Of a DNA stretch of 64,000 nt, positions 10,443 to 30,958 are shown piece by piece. The translations under genes were made by a program, and so were the position numbers. Source of the DNA: Desulfobulbaceae bacterium (GTDB lineage Bacteria > Desulfobacterota > Desulfobulbia > Desulfobulbales > Desulfocapsaceae). Within the stretch, counting starts at the first letter, position 1; each line of letters starts with the position of its first letter. The notes beneath the pieces were generated by a model. It ran no database searches, was not told where the DNA came from, and was given only the letters and a program-made list of their open reading frames with translations. Where the stretch lies: the NCBI GenBank assembly GCA_009773475.1, contig WSXV01000001.1, forward strand, positions 496,001 through 560,000. Reading direction: 5' to 3'.

Positions 10443-10478
10443 AAGCCCACAACTTGTTGAAAGTTGTGGGCTTTTTTT
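10443..10478 (+). terminator. Rho-independent terminator after tRNA-Leu
   Basis: Perfect 13-bp stem AAGCCCACAACTT / AAGTTGTGGGCTT with loop GTTGA and a run of Ts. It closes the gap-pgk-tpiA-secG-tRNA unit just before the convergent DMT gene. Confidence 0.93.
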
Positions 10479-25291: not shown

Positions 25292-26146
25292 CTATTGCAG
25301 AGAGAGCAGATAGGTGCGCAAGTTCATTGCCCGGTCATGCAGGCCCAGTTTACGGCGCAGGTTCTTTCGATGGAAGCTGATGGTGTCCACCGATACCCGG
25401 AGTACATCGGCAATCTCCTGACTGCTTTTCCCCTGGCGAACCAGGGAGGCCACCTCTACCTCCTGGGCGGTGAGCAGAAGCTGGATGGACGAGAGGCGAT
25501 TGAGGAAGGGGCTGACGATGTCATGGAGGTGGGATTCCACTATGTCGATCAGGGTTTGCTCACGACCTCCCTGCAGGGATTTTTTCAACCTCTCCACATA
25601 GGGCAGCACCAACTCATGGATATTGGCTATCATCCTCTGTTCCAGGTCTCTCAGGTCGCGGTCACGGTGTTCTAATAGTACCTTGAGCGCCACATTCATC
25701 TCCTCCAACTGCTCGCTTTTGTTTCGGATTTCTTGTTCGTTCTTTTGTAATTTCTCCTGTGCCAGGATGATGGGGCTTATGTCCTCATGGACAATAATGA
25801 TCCGGTGCACATCCTTTGCGAGATAGGGCAGAATACGAAGAGTAAACCACCTGCGTTTGGTGGGGGAATGACAGGGGTACTGGGTCACAAATTCCAGCAG
25901 CTCGCCCTGGAGTACCTTGCGGATGCCTAAAGCGACAATGTCTCCTTCCCGCTCTCCTGCCTCCCGTGCGGTATCGCAGATGGAAAGATAGTTGATTCCG
26001 ATACAGTCTGTTTTTCCCTGCATCCCGTTTTCCGCAGCGTAACCTTGCCAGGCTCGATTGGTCTCGATGATTACCCCTTGATTGTCAAGGACTGCCACAT
26101 GGGCGGAGAGAGAATTGACAATGACTTCATACATATTGCTGTCCAT
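25292..26146 (-). CDS. PAS-domain LuxR-type transcriptional regulator
   Basis: 284 residues. An N-terminal PAS domain (about 1-125; VAVLDNQGVIIETNRAW ... VHEDISPI) is followed by a coiled coil (about 130-170), a helical linker and a C-terminal LuxR/GerE helix-turn-helix (LTAQEVEVASLVRQGKSS through RKNLRRKLGL, about 228-273). It has no membrane segment or receiver domain, so it is a one-component cytoplasmic sensor. The ligand or cofactor of the PAS domain is unknown. A near-perfect AAGGAGG ribosome site sits 5-11 nt before the ATG. A 30-bp dyad overlaps the leader immediately upstream. It is divergent from the tandem small genes, suggesting it controls them. Confidence 0.92.
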   Translation of the reverse strand: MDSNMYEVIVNSLSAHVAVLDNQGVIIETNRAWQGYAAENGMQGKTDCIGINYLSICDTAREAGEREGDIVALGIRKVLQGELLEFVTQYPCHSPTKRRWFTLRILPYLAKDVHRIIIVHEDISPIILAQEKLQKNEQEIRNKSEQLEEMNVALKVLLEHRDRDLRDLEQRMIANIHELVLPYVERLKKSLQGGREQTLIDIVESHLHDIVSPFLNRLSSIQLLLTAQEVEVASLVRQGKSSQEIADVLRVSVDTISFHRKNLRRKLGLHDRAMNLRTYLLSLQ

Positions 26147-26157
26147 GGGAAACCTCC

Positions 26158-26187
26158 TTATAATGGTAGCTTATGTTACCATTATAA
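26158..26187. promoter_or_regulatory. Perfect dyad, candidate operator of the PAS-LuxR regulator
   Basis: Arms TTATAATGGTA (26158-26168) and TACCATTATAA (26177-26187), 11 bp each, are perfectly symmetric around an 8-bp spacer. It lies just upstream of the PAS-LuxR ribosome site and 17 bp upstream of a -35 box for the small genes. If transcription starts near 26239, it is centred about 66 bp upstream, a common activator position. Role inferred. Confidence 0.7.
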
Positions 26188-26203
26188 CCTTATTTTACCA
26201 GTA

Positions 26204-26232
26204 TTGTTTTTCGATATTGAAACAACTATTAT
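26204..26232 (+). promoter_or_regulatory. Sigma-70-type promoter for the tandem small genes
   Basis: TTGTTT (26204-26209), a 17-bp spacer and TATTAT (26227-26232), placed 47 bp before the first small ORF. Spacing is ideal and both boxes are near consensus. The dyad at 26158-26187 is immediately upstream. Confidence 0.6.
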
Positions 26233-26279
26233 TAAATCAAAGGAAAAAAAAGACCAAAAACTTGACAACTGAGGACATT

Positions 26280-26456
26280 ATGAGAGACGATTTAAAAGGT
26301 GAATATGGTGATATGGTATGGGTACGGGACAAGGACGGCAAAGAGTATGCCTGCTCCATAGATGCCCTGAAGGGAAAAATCAAAACCAAGGAAGAGATGT
26401 CGGAGGCAGAGTTATCCGGTTGCACCGATCTCAGCACTGTGATTGGTGATTGGTAG
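26280..26456 (+). CDS. Small Cys-containing protein, tandem copy 1
   Basis: 58 residues, starting MRDDLKGEYGDMVWVRDKDG. All three copies share the core YGDxVWVRDKDGKEYAC, then DALKGKIKTKEEMSEAEL, then GCTDLSTVIGxW. There are two conserved cysteines, about 28 residues apart, and no signal peptide or membrane helix. Ribosome site GAGGAC lies 5 nt before the ATG. I do not recognise the family. This copy differs most from the others at its N-terminus. Conservation of the frame while DNA diverges argues that it is a real gene. Confidence 0.8.
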   Translation: MRDDLKGEYGDMVWVRDKDGKEYACSIDALKGKIKTKEEMSEAELSGCTDLSTVIGDW

Positions 26457-26546: not shown

Positions 26547-26720
26547 ATGAGTGATGAAAAAGCTGGATACGGTGACTTGGTATGGGTGCGGGATAAGGAC
26601 GGCAAGGAGTATGCATGCTCTATCGATGCCCTGAAGGGAAAGATCAAAACCAAGGAAGAGATGTCAGAGGCGGAGTTAGCCGGTTGTACCGATCTCAGTA
26701 CCGTGATTGGCAACTGGTAG
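26547..26720 (+). CDS. Small Cys-containing protein, tandem copy 2
   Basis: 57 residues beginning MSDEKAGYGDLVWVRDKDG and ending STVIGNW. It is nearly identical to copy 3 in protein, with one change (Ile versus Val after YACS), while many third codon positions differ. The longer frame upstream (from 26487) is not preferred, because the N-terminus, spacing and GGAGA ribosome site all match copy 3 at ATG 26547. Function unknown. Confidence 0.82.
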   Translation: MSDEKAGYGDLVWVRDKDGKEYACSIDALKGKIKTKEEMSEAELAGCTDLSTVIGNW

Positions 26721-26811: not shown

Positions 26812-26985
26812 ATGAGTGATGAAAAAGCTGGATACGGTGATTTGGTGTGGGTACGGGACAAGGACGGTAAAGAGTATGCTTGCTCCGTTGATGCCTTGAA
26901 AGGAAAGATTAAAACCAAAGAAGAGATGTCAGAGGCAGAATTGGCTGGTTGTACCGATCTCAGTACCGTGATTGGAAACTGGTAA
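26812..26985 (+). CDS. Small Cys-containing protein, tandem copy 3
   Basis: 57 residues, ATG 26812 to TAA 26985, with a strong GGGAGA ribosome site 6 nt upstream. Same core as copies 1 and 2, with cysteines in EYACS and AGCTD. Synonymous differences from copy 2 (for example GTG/GTA, GCC/GCT) outnumber the amino-acid change, which points to purifying selection. A dispersed repeat starts 10 nt after its stop. Function unknown; it could bind a metal or cofactor through the two cysteines. Confidence 0.82.
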   Translation: MSDEKAGYGDLVWVRDKDGKEYACSVDALKGKIKTKEEMSEAELAGCTDLSTVIGNW

Positions 26986-27177: not shown

Positions 27178-27212
27178 AAAGGCGCCGTCTGTCTGGACGG
27201 CGCCTTTTTTTT
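27178..27212 (+). terminator. Rho-independent terminator after the riboswitch-like element
   Basis: Stem GGCGCCGTC / GACGGCGCC, extendable by AAA/TTT, with loop TGTCTG and eight Ts. Very strong. Position after the aptamer suits transcription attenuation of the genes at 27332 and 27744, though no clear antiterminator pairing was found. Confidence 0.93.
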
Positions 27213-27331: not shown

Positions 27332-27727
27332 ATGAATCTTGAAGCATATTTTTCTGAACATACCGGTGTCGGGGTCTTGGCCACCAGCGATGCTGCCGGA
27401 GTGGTGGATACCGCCATTTACTCAAAACCCCATGTTGAAGGCATTGACACCATTGTCTTTATCATGCGTGATCGCCTCACCCACAAAAACCTGCAGGAAA
27501 ACGGCCATGCCAGTTATCTGTTTCTTGAAGATGGTCGGGGCTATATTGGTGCCCGCATGTTTTTGACCAAGGTTGATGAGAGTACGGATCAGGAGCTGAT
27601 TGCCTCCATGACCAGGCGCCATCTCAGTCCGGAGGAGGACAAGGCCAAGGGAGACAAATTTCTGGTTCGTTTCCGGGTGGGAAAAGTCCTGGCTCTGATC
27701 GGCGGCGAAGAGATCGCCCTTCAGTAA
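27332..27727 (+). CDS. Pyridoxamine 5'-phosphate oxidase-family split-barrel flavoprotein
   Basis: 131 residues forming one FMN-binding split-barrel domain: LATSDAAGVVDTAIYSKPHV, VFIMRDRLTHKNLQENGHASYLFLED and RFRVGKVLALIGGEE. These small PNPOx-like proteins bind FMN, F420 or haem; the cofactor here cannot be told. GGGAGAAG lies upstream of the ATG. It is 16 bp before the desaturase-like gene, so the two probably form an operon downstream of the aptamer and terminator. Confidence 0.85.
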   Translation: MNLEAYFSEHTGVGVLATSDAAGVVDTAIYSKPHVEGIDTIVFIMRDRLTHKNLQENGHASYLFLEDGRGYIGARMFLTKVDESTDQELIASMTRRHLSPEEDKAKGDKFLVRFRVGKVLALIGGEEIALQ

Positions 27728-27743
27728 GACTGATTGATGGTGT

Positions 27744-29243
27744 ATGGCAGAGACAACCAGCGACGAATCAGGGAGTGCTGTGGAAAAATATGATGTGATC
27801 ATTGTTGGCGGCGGCATCGGCGGTGTGGTAGCCGGCGGGCTTCTGGCTCGCAGCGGGGCAGGGGTGCTTCTGATTGAGCAGGGCGCCCATGTTGGAGGCT
27901 GTGCCGCCACCTTTTCCCATCGCGGCTATCGTTTTGATGCCGGTGCCACCATTGGCTGCGGATTCCATCGCGGCGGGCCCATGCATTGGCTGGCCGAGCA
28001 ACTTGATATCACTTGGCCCTTGCGTCCTCTGCCGGTGGCTTGGGAGTATTGTGATGGGATTTTGAACCTTCCCCTTGATCCCGCCAGAATCAGCCTGCTC
28101 CAGCAGTTTCCTGAAAGCAGGGGGTTTTGGCGGGAACAGGCGGAGCTCGCCGACAGCCTCTGGGATTTGTCGGAATGTCTGCTCGCCCTTTATGGTCAGG
28201 GGCGGATGCAGCAGTCCATCTCCCTTGGGGCCTGCCTCTTGCCCAGGATCAAGGATGTCCGGCTCCTACGGCTGGCCTTGATGTCGGTTGCGCAGTGGCT
28301 GAAGGGGCATGGGCTGGCCGACAATAAGGCCTTTTGCCGTTTCATCGACGCCCAGCTGCTGATCTCTGCCCAGACTACGGCGGGGAATTGTAACGCCCTC
28401 TTTGCAGCCCTCTCCCTGGATCTGCCGAGGCGGTCTCCCTGCGTCTTTGATGGCGGCATTGGGAGTGTTGCGGAGTTGATCCGGCAGGCCATGGTCAAAA
28501 ACGGCGGGCAGGTTCGACTGGGAGAAAAGGTGCAGTCGTTTACCCTCAAAGGGAAAAAGATCAGCGAGGTTGTGACCGAGAAAGGACGCTACCGGGCCAA
28601 AGAGGTGGTACTCAACGGTTCCAGTGTGACCCTGGCCTCGTTGCTGGGCAAACAACTTGCCGGTGTGGGAGGCGGGGACGTCTCCGGCCGTGCCGCCTGG
28701 AGCGCCTTTGTCCTTCATCTGGGGGTGGAAGACACCATTATGGCCGAGCGGCCAGGGGATCATCTGCAACTGCTTCGACCGGAAAGCATCGGTCTGGCCG
28801 AAGGCGACTCTCTCTTTCTCTCCGCCTCACCGTTGACCGATGCCACACGGGCGCCCATCGGCAAAAGGGCAATCACGCTCTCCACCCACACCAAGGTCGG
28901 CCCCTGGTGGCAGGCCTGGGGGCAGGGCAAGGAGGCGTATCGGAGTTTGAAAGCCGAGTACACCGAAGCGGCGCTCAATGTCGCCGAAGGCTACATTCCT
29001 GGGATGCGTCGAGGCATGGATCTCTGCCTGGCCGGTTCGCCGGTGACCTATGCCCGCTATACCGGCCGCCATCTCGGGCTTGTCGGCGGCTACACCCAGA
29101 CCAAATTGCAGGCCCCAAAGCAGAACCTGTTCGGCCTCAAAAACTGTACCCTGGTGGGAGACAACTCCTTCCCCGGGCAATCCGTGGCCGGGGTTACGGT
29201 GGGGGCGACCATGGCGGTGGACACCCTGCTCCGTCAACTCTAA
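27744..29243 (+). CDS. FAD-dependent oxidoreductase, CrtI/phytoene desaturase-like
   Basis: 499 residues. The N-terminal dinucleotide-binding motif is YDVIIVGGGIGGVVAGGLLARSG followed by LLIEQGAHVGGCAATF. The C-terminal block LVGDNSFPGQSVAGVTVGAT is typical of the phytoene dehydrogenase / carotenoid isomerase / retinol saturase clan. Substrate may be an isoprenoid but is not proven; no crtB or crtE is nearby. A GTG at 27780 (VEKYDV) with GGGAG upstream is an alternative start. It meets the pseudogene of a MerR/B12-type regulator tail to tail with overlapping stops. Confidence 0.85.
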   Translation: MAETTSDESGSAVEKYDVIIVGGGIGGVVAGGLLARSGAGVLLIEQGAHVGGCAATFSHRGYRFDAGATIGCGFHRGGPMHWLAEQLDITWPLRPLPVAWEYCDGILNLPLDPARISLLQQFPESRGFWREQAELADSLWDLSECLLALYGQGRMQQSISLGACLLPRIKDVRLLRLALMSVAQWLKGHGLADNKAFCRFIDAQLLISAQTTAGNCNALFAALSLDLPRRSPCVFDGGIGSVAELIRQAMVKNGGQVRLGEKVQSFTLKGKKISEVVTEKGRYRAKEVVLNGSSVTLASLLGKQLAGVGGGDVSGRAAWSAFVLHLGVEDTIMAERPGDHLQLLRPESIGLAEGDSLFLSASPLTDATRAPIGKRAITLSTHTKVGPWWQAWGQGKEAYRSLKAEYTEAALNVAEGYIPGMRRGMDLCLAGSPVTYARYTGRHLGLVGGYTQTKLQAPKQNLFGLKNCTLVGDNSFPGQSVAGVTVGATMAVDTLLRQL

Positions 29244-29598
29244 GAATAGGGGAGATCCAAACCACCATGAATCCCCTGGCCGAACTCCAGACGATTGTTG
29301 ACAGCGGCTAAGTCTGTGCGATATTTTTGAAACCGGACCGGATCGCTGACCGACAGCCAGATACTCTCCGGTCGTATCTGCCGGATACTCTCTTCCACCG
29401 CCGACAGAGGCATGGACGATCCCAGAAACACGACATTCCATCCCTGGCGGGCCAGGGCGTAGGCCACGGTGAGCAAGACGGTCCTGTTGCGCAAGCCTTA
29501 AGGAGCACGCTCTCTGCCCAGGGCCGGAGTAAGTGCGGCGAAATGCCGCACTCCCGGGCCTGGATTCCAATCTTGTAGACCTGAATGTCGGGGTTCAT
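29240..29598 (-). pseudogene. Remnant of MerR-type HTH / B12-binding regulator (CarH/LitR-like)
   Basis: Two broken pieces in different frames. The 5' piece, from ATG 29598, reads VYKIGIQARECGISPHLLRPW, the start of a MerR helix-turn-helix. The 3' piece (from about 29494 to TAG 29240) reads TVLLTVAYALARQGWNVVFLG followed by SSMPLSAVEESIRQIRPE, which looks like a cobalamin-binding (B12-type) Rossmann domain end. A full protein would need about 150 more residues between them, and a TAA lies in frame at the junction. The ATG overlaps the stop of the methyltransferase gene, so it was once operon-coupled. The assignment as CarH/LitR-like is inference. Confidence 0.75.
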
Positions 29599-30803
29599 CA
29601 GGCCTTTTTCCCCCAGGCCATGAAAACCGGATCACTCAACGGCAGCTCCTGGTGCGGATCATCCTCGGGCCTTGGCCACCCCCGTTTACTCAGACTGGCC
29701 AGCTCGGTAAATCCGCCGGTCTGGTGAAACATCTCCAGTACCATCCCCAATCGTTCAAATTCATGCAGCTCAGACCAGATCCTGATGGCCTTGGGGGGAA
29801 ACCAGCGATTGGAAAAGGCCAGGGCCAGCACCCCACCGGGAACCAGGACCCGCTTAATTTCAGCAAAGATGGCCAGCGGGTCGGTCAGATATTCCACCGA
29901 GGCGGTACAGATGACGGCATCCATGCTGTTGTCGGCCAGGGGGATGTCCGGCGTATGGTTGAGATCATGGAGCATTGTCGTGCTGGCCTTGTTGTTGGCG
30001 GCAAGCTCAACCTCGTTCATCCCGAGAACGGTGAGTGTCTGCAGTGGGAGCTGTTCCGGCAGGTGGGAATCCCAGCTGCCCATAAGATCAAGGACCCTGG
30101 CCCCTGGGTTGATAAGTCGTGCGTATTGATCGCGAATCGTAGCCCTGGCGGTGGAGTCCAGGTGCTGTACCATGCGGGGCCCTCCATAAAACAGCTGGTC
30201 GGGACCCTCGTCTTGCCGCTGCCTGCCTTCGGGGCGGAAAAAATCGGTGGCCATATTCTGGTAGCGGGCCTGCATGCCGGGACCATTCTCACAGATCAGG
30301 GCCAGCCAGTCCTCGCATCGCCCGCCCCGCTCCACCCCGGAGGTATGAATCTGGATGACTTTTGCGTTTACGGCAAGATCGTGTCCCGCCAGGGGATGAT
30401 TGAGATCAAAGAGGAGTTTTTCGTCCTGCCCAACACATCGGGCCGGGGCCGTTGAGACCTGAAAGACATTGCTGACCCCGTGCAGAAAACCCTGCGGATA
30501 AAAGCGGCCAGTATGGGGAGAGAGGATTTTTGCCGGACTTCCCGGGGCGTAAAATTGGTGGGGTCGGATTTTCACCAGTTTATTCTGAAAATACGGGGCA
30601 GGGACGACATCGGCCGGGACCCGGGCCTGTGCCGCTTCTCCCTCGCCTGTGTCGTTCAGGGCCGAGGCCAGCCCAGGGACAAAGCAGTCGCGCCACATGT
30701 TGACCTGATCCGTCCACAGGCTGTCCTGATGTCGCACCCCATTGCTCTGCCAGTCCAGCGTAAACTCAATGGTGGCTTTGCTGTAGCCGTTGATTTTTTC
30801 CAT
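29598..30803 (-). CDS. Fusion of FKBP/SlyD-like domain and class I SAM methyltransferase
   Basis: About 401 residues; ATG 30803 is set by GGAGGA 7 nt upstream. The first ~165 residues resemble an FKBP-type peptidyl-prolyl isomerase of the SlyD kind: FVPGLASAL, RFYPQGFLHGVSNVF and LLFDLNHPLAGHDLAVNAKV, the last being the classic NHPLAG strand. The C-terminal ~200 residues are a methyltransferase with motif I ARVLDLMGSWDSHLP, ending strand SMDAVICTASVEYLTDP and LVPGGVLALAFSNRW. The substrate is unknown. In other bacteria such methyltransferases occur in B12/light-regulated LitR gene clusters, which fits the regulator remnant beside it. Confidence 0.83.
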   Translation of the reverse strand: MEKINGYSKATIEFTLDWQSNGVRHQDSLWTDQVNMWRDCFVPGLASALNDTGEGEAAQARVPADVVPAPYFQNKLVKIRPHQFYAPGSPAKILSPHTGRFYPQGFLHGVSNVFQVSTAPARCVGQDEKLLFDLNHPLAGHDLAVNAKVIQIHTSGVERGGRCEDWLALICENGPGMQARYQNMATDFFRPEGRQRQDEGPDQLFYGGPRMVQHLDSTARATIRDQYARLINPGARVLDLMGSWDSHLPEQLPLQTLTVLGMNEVELAANNKASTTMLHDLNHTPDIPLADNSMDAVICTASVEYLTDPLAIFAEIKRVLVPGGVLALAFSNRWFPPKAIRIWSELHEFERLGMVLEMFHQTGGFTELASLSKRGWPRPEDDPHQELPLSDPVFMAWGKKA

Positions 30804-30958
30804 GGCCGTTCCTCCGGGAGACAAGAAGAATTGTTAAAGTTAGACAATGTCTACATATTTTTGAAAAATCTAAATTGAAACAGCCAGAAATCAATCAAAA
30901 ATATAGACAAAACGTTAACAAACAATTTGTTCCCGGGGATTCGGTTGGAAAGGAATGA

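Follow-up and report, generated by a model that had tools for sequence, protein, structure and literature searches.

VqmA, a one-component receptor of Vibrio that joins a PAS sensor to a GerE-type HTH, activates an adjacent small-RNA gene, and EL222 is a LOV-LuxR photoreceptor. The PAS-LuxR regulators of Streptomyces antibiotic clusters have the same pair of domains as the protein studied here; they belong to another phylum and have other targets. Regarding the response to light and oxygen, the RpoE (sigmaE-ChrR) singlet-oxygen regulon of R. sphaeroides includes a fasciclin protein, a DNA photolyase, a cyclopropane-fatty-acid synthase and proteins of unknown function, according to the part of PMC7074977 considered. 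The class II LitR regulons, in the excerpt of PMC9758184 considered, include a photolyase, an FAD oxidoreductase and the fatty-acid synthase UfaM.

The locus described here lies in a stretch of 64,000 nucleotides from a Desulfobulbaceae bacterium (the window). From its sequence, the system would be a PAS-LuxR one-component regulon in Desulfobulbales, and the open-access PMC literature yielded nothing on this operator or regulon. We think it probable that a dyad in the window is the operator core of the divergently encoded PAS-LuxR regulator, which would activate the small genes on the other side and run a wider regulon.

The regulator, the small genes and the dyad

The proposed operator-binding protein (25292..26146, minus strand, 284 aa) has the order PAS_4, coiled coil, GerE/LuxR. 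Both the C-terminal GerE HTH (PF00196, E 4.2e-14) and the N-terminal PAS sensor (PF08448 PAS_4, E 5.5e-6) were found over the cut-off, and the AlphaFold (AF2) model, with a mean pLDDT of 82.2, consists of a PAS fold, a long helix and the HTH. The protein therefore has the HTH and PAS features of GerE/LuxR-type one-component regulators, and it is predicted to bind the dyad as a dimer. No Pfam match to the autoinducer-binding domain of AHL quorum-sensing LuxR proteins was found in it (protein P0001, E up to 0.1). The Foldseek matches of the model were mostly generic PAS matches (LOV, PYP, VqmA), thus no ligand can be named. VqmA (6ide, 6kju, 6ugl, 7dwm) was among the top matches, with about 15% identity in the fold match and the same PAS and GerE-type HTH; however, the targets here are protein genes and the operator is different. 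EL222 likewise has a PAS-type sensor fused to a LuxR HTH, but the motif of the flavin-binding cysteine of LOV domains, GxNCRFLQ, was not seen by eye in our regulator, where the stretch reads GINYLSIC, and a LOV photoreceptor of the EL222 type was rejected. Among 72 orthologues, Cys92 and His120 are conserved in 100%, His93 in 99% and Cys57 in 96%.

On the plus strand, three tandem copies of a small protein follow, with 58 aa (26280..26456), 57 aa (26547..26720) and 57 aa (26812..26985), the third differing from the second by one residue. An intrinsic terminator-like hairpin with a T tract (27178..27207, plus strand) is the likely end of their transcript. The family has invariant W, D and G and two invariant cysteines, its members in relatives end in GTERW at the C terminus, and up to 8 copies per genome occur elsewhere. 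No Pfam model passed the cut-off with the member listed in full, the matches among 28 members were all weak (best E 0.013), NCBIfam gave no match for the one member searched, and the family profile found no relative among solved structures (best E 0.2). For the small protein, AF2 gave a model of low quality (pLDDT 64.5). Behind the terminator lies a PNPOx-like flavoprotein gene (27332..27727, plus strand; Pfam match below the cut-off); in some relatives, members of the PNPOx family have the operator upstream.

The perfect dyad of 11-bp arms and an 8-bp gap that the earlier note had claimed is present as described at 26158..26187 (TTATAATGGTA-8-TACCATTATAA, no mismatch between the arms). Its conserved core is an 18-mer (26164-26181) with the family consensus TGRTAGY-N4-RCTAYCA. 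A second match with up to 3 mismatches was found neither in the window nor in the whole 3.03-Mb genome. When perfect arms of at least 11 and a gap of at most 10 were taken as the criterion, a comparable dyad turned up in 43 of 20,000 Markov-shuffled versions of the local AT-rich 133-bp region and in none of the 10 shuffles of the complete window. The real window holds 11 such matches at 5 places, one of which is a terminator, and therefore the dyad by itself is weak evidence. Further perfect dyads with arms of at least 11 lie at 10443 and 58757.

The case for the dyad thus rests on its conservation, not on the palindrome alone. We found PAS-LuxR orthologues (E up to 1e-60) in 64 of the 257 genomes of the order Desulfobulbales. 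Named relatives include Desulfocapsa, Desulfofustis and Desulfopila MAGs, which places the window in this order. The 71 loci with enough upstream DNA were scored over 14 informative positions after the duplicate locus L025 had been dropped; this first test used mononucleotide shuffles, and the later DUF3833 and fasciclin scans used Markov-1 shuffles. The divergent small gene is present at 35 of the 71 loci. Where both genes are kept, 31 of the 35 loci reach at least 12 of the 14 positions and 34 reach at least 11, so the lack of conservation that would have spoken against the note's interpretation was not seen. Among the loci without the divergent small gene, 13 of 36 reach at least 12 positions and 23 fall below, and only one of the 7 loci with an identity below 45% reaches 12.

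The alignment of the 48 best sites revealed a longer arrangement, namely CAAT (-25..-22), AAA (-14..-12), a TGATAG-like half-site at -11 and then TGATAGTNAAAACTATCA. An additional T(A/G)GG half-site, a weak one, starts at -22, which together with the one at -11 means that half-sites recur at 11-bp steps. In the window this composite operator of 43 nt occupies 26164..26206 on the minus strand (in the sense of the regulator, CAATACTGGTAAAATAAGGTTATAATGGTAACATAAGCTACCA), with the dyad as its core, and the two accessory direct half-sites of relatives are degenerate in it.

These comparisons also bear on two other explanations of the palindrome. A chance origin in AT-rich DNA, for which the 43 shuffles could be quoted, has virtually no probability left, as the dyad is kept in four families of the order and its conservation already refutes this reading. 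We give no more credit to an RNA hairpin or terminator, although a terminator-like match was listed at 26158-26187: the identity of the bases is conserved rather than their pairing, with 15 A/C mismatches at pair 1-16 and 7 at pair 2-15 among the 48 sites, the dyad lies upstream of the predicted start of the small genes, and its tail is not a T run. Both explanations were rejected on conservation, shuffles, mismatch pattern and position. Sequence comparison identifies the palindrome as a genuine regulatory DNA element that relatives share.

The operator also stays with the small genes where these are detached from the PAS-LuxR gene. The small gene of G178 and G179 follows the regulator on the same strand, with the site between the PAS stop and the small start, and in G082 and G164 the site is also at the small gene; none was found at the regulator in G082, G178 and G179. 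At locus L006 (G003) the operator is retained beside the regulator, and the small gene is only a decayed remnant (tblastn, 24 residues).

Promoter geometry and the direction of control

The promoter TTGTTT-17-TATTAT proposed in the earlier note has its -35 element at 26204..26209 and its -10 element at 26227..26232 on the plus strand. Both elements and the spacer of 17 (family mode 16) were recovered, but the dyad ends 16 bp before the -35, not 17. The TTG of the -35 corresponds to the conserved CAA read on the other strand. The predicted start is near 26239, which puts the centre of the dyad at about -66. TTGTTT and TATTAT are a poor match to the consensus, and this promoter was absent from the output of a sigma-70 consensus scan. 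On the other side, the ribosome-binding-site core of the regulator (reverse complement of CCTCC, 26153..26157, minus strand) directly touches the dyad, as the note had said.

Regarding the -10 element, the 95 sites with a recognised target have, at spacer 16 and toward the target, T in 88%, A in 66% and T in 75%, and in the 32 targets that are not small genes the values are 94%, 72% and 78%. These -10 positions were not selected by the search pattern, whereas the TTG is invariant in the 95 sites because it is part of it. The fixed distances to a -35 and a -10 downstream, with the dyad centre near -66, are what is predicted for an activator. This phased promoter is the strongest sign that the operator would serve activation of the gene on the small side. 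In the direction of the regulator, TTGACA-like hexamers (at least 4 of 6) were found in 20 of the 48 sites and -10-like elements in 19, thus only some lineages could start the regulator transcript within the dyad.

We infer binding by the regulator, activation, self-repression and a signal as follows. A dimer of the regulator would bind the two inverted half-sites, TGRTAG and CTAYCA, whose centre lies near position -66 of the promoter of the small genes, and in many relatives weaker half-sites would continue at 11-bp steps toward the -35. In the active state of the PAS domain, the bound regulator would recruit RNA polymerase to the poor -35 (TTGnnn) and -10, and the tandem small genes would be switched on. 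In the window, the bound protein would also lie over the region where the regulator's own gene starts, and would probably repress that gene. The same operator would run genes for DUF3833 lipoproteins, fasciclin, UvdE, PNPOx and methyltransferases and further small-protein genes, and the regulon would most likely be a response to damage by light or oxygen.

The same PAS-LuxR protein might instead repress the small genes until a signal relieves them, since the site is close to both genes and divergently encoded regulators often repress. We regard this as very improbable, because the dyad keeps a fixed distance upstream of the -35, and because this -35, like those of activated promoters, is poor. 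An activator-type site linked to PAS-LuxR, as proposed in the earlier note, is well supported by conservation, promoter spacing and co-occurrence. Autoregulation, which the note had also suggested, is plausible for adjacent genes but does not hold in general, considering the 13 of 36 loci and the three genomes with the site away from the regulator given above. The idea of a sensor driving the tandem small proteins kept its core but was too narrow, as it missed the composite operator and the wider regulon.

Targets and the reader of the operator

A 43-nt pattern taken from the consensus of the PAS-LuxR-linked sites, allowing up to 3 mismatches, was run on the 257 genomes and found 111 sites in 60 of them, versus 2 sites for the reversed pattern. 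Outside the order, 17 of 379 genomes were matched, most of them at 3 mismatches, and the reversed pattern gave a similar result, so we take these matches to be near background. A single operator match with 1 mismatch was seen in a genome of another order (G412:C1:4161402-4161444).

The PAS-LuxR gene lies downstream of 39 of the 111 sites. The other 72 are located before genes of the small family (34), DUF3833 genes (12, and one more site with DUF3833 on the divergent side), fasciclin genes (4), PNPOx genes (2), methyltransferases (2), another small family (2), chalcone-isomerase-like genes (2, and one more behind a DUF3833 gene) and an ADP-ribosylglycohydrolase-like gene (1), and 13 are unclassified, without a recognised target. 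For the rarer classes the reference sequences were taken from the same matches, and single cases prove little. Pfam searches, made with N-terminal pieces only, put UvdE, fasciclin, DUF3833 and lipocalin over the cut-off and the chalcone-like and PNPOx proteins below it. Divergent from PAS-LuxR, UvdE replaces the small gene in G028 and G170, and in G005, G226, G239 and G041 the closest gene that was recognised is PNPOx.

In an independent test, the Pfam model alone was used to collect DUF3833 genes, which gave 37 matches in 35 genomes; 30 loci were taken, and the 29 testable ones were scored with a matrix built only from PAS-linked sites. Upstream of 15 of the 29 the score was at least 18, and the best shuffle gave 14.8. 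The site was present in 13 of 24 cases with the regulator and in 2 of 5 without it, therefore this set alone does not tie the site to the regulator. Among fasciclin genes (14 matches, 12 testable), 5 score above 20. Of the unlinked small genes, 15 of 54 reach 12 of the 14 positions with p up to 0.02 (the duplicates L026 and L027 not counted; L133, one of the 15, lacks the CAAT array), and many copies have no site. A negative control with regions upstream of arbitrary ORFs consisted mostly of operator loci and was therefore set aside. In the genome of the window, a search with the short 18-mer pattern was uninformative (84 matches versus 150 in the control), and a second site lies on another contig (G000:C21:31433-31475) before a gene of another small family, a site that the relatives G004 and G009 also have. 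Altogether, the predicted operator precedes unlinked small paralogues, DUF3833 lipoproteins, fasciclin, UvdE, PNPOx-like flavoproteins and methyltransferases.

Regarding the protein that reads these sites, the operator occurs in 53 of the 64 genomes that have the regulator versus 7 of the 193 that lack it (Fisher 5e-36), and, among the genomes with a small gene, in 47 of 56 versus 3 of 25. Within genera we observed 42 co-occurrences versus 19.2 expected (z 9.0), a test that removes shared promoter ancestry only partly, and 23 versus 11.3 (z 5.8) when sites immediately upstream of the regulator were excluded. In the genus of the window, all 7 genomes with the regulator and none of the 10 without it have the operator. 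In G052 (L095), only the HTH part of the regulator is left next to the small gene, and the operator is gone. The regulator went undetected in 7 operator genomes. Next to the site of G041 there is a PAS-LuxR-like frame that missed the E-value bar, the sites of G155, G197 and G044 lack a recognised target and may be chance matches, and G062, G018 and G190, genomes 63-91% complete, have sites at recognised targets.

The last three genomes would fit a different regulator that reads the operator and has PAS-LuxR as just one of its targets, as would the several regulator orthologues without an upstream site and the resemblance of the operator-bearing genes to the LitR and sigmaE-ChrR regulons. This is rather unlikely in our view, because the operator co-occurs with PAS-LuxR within genera, the PAS-LuxR gene adjoins 39 of the 111 sites and the operator was lost where the regulator is truncated. 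Moreover, the class II LitR motif in the portion of PMC9758184 considered, T(G/A)TACA-N12-TGTACA, is unlike TGRTAG-N6-CTAYCA. The neighbouring PAS-LuxR gene thus encodes the most likely reader of the operator.

Likeness to light and oxygen stress regulons

UvdE repairs UV damage, and it is one of the putative damage-response families among the targets, together with fasciclin, DUF3833, lipocalin and chalcone-isomerase-like proteins. By analogy, the target set resembles photo-oxidative or singlet-oxygen regulons of other bacteria, and from this likeness we infer light or oxygen as the signal. The sigmaE-ChrR regulon of Rhodobacter has a similar target set with fasciclin (PMC7074977), but it is run by an ECF sigma factor, whereas the present system would be run by an activator with a dyad operator. 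The light regulons of LitR/CarH also have targets of the light-stress type, but these regulators are of the MerR-B12 type; an identity of the operators was rejected, as the consensus of the 48 sites differs from the LitR/CarH motif in the excerpt of PMC9758184 used here. We suggest, tentatively and with slightly more doubt than confidence, that Desulfobulbales have a light or oxygen damage regulon under PAS-LuxR instead of sigmaE-ChrR or LitR, with the family of about 58 residues and two invariant cysteines as its main output. If so, strict anaerobes living where sediments meet oxygen and light would handle both with a regulator that differs from those compared in other proteobacteria. The regulator, the operator and the list of targets can now be tested in cultured Desulfobulbales, and the unnamed small-protein family has a first context.

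Further downstream in the window, the relaxed own-genome pattern gave no operator site at the methyltransferase gene 29598-30824, the product of which is about 39-40% identical to the operator-bearing methyltransferases of G176 and G182. Between it and an FAD oxidoreductase gene there are broken frames (29240-29635), perhaps a decayed gene, one of which has a weak B12-binding match below the cut-off.
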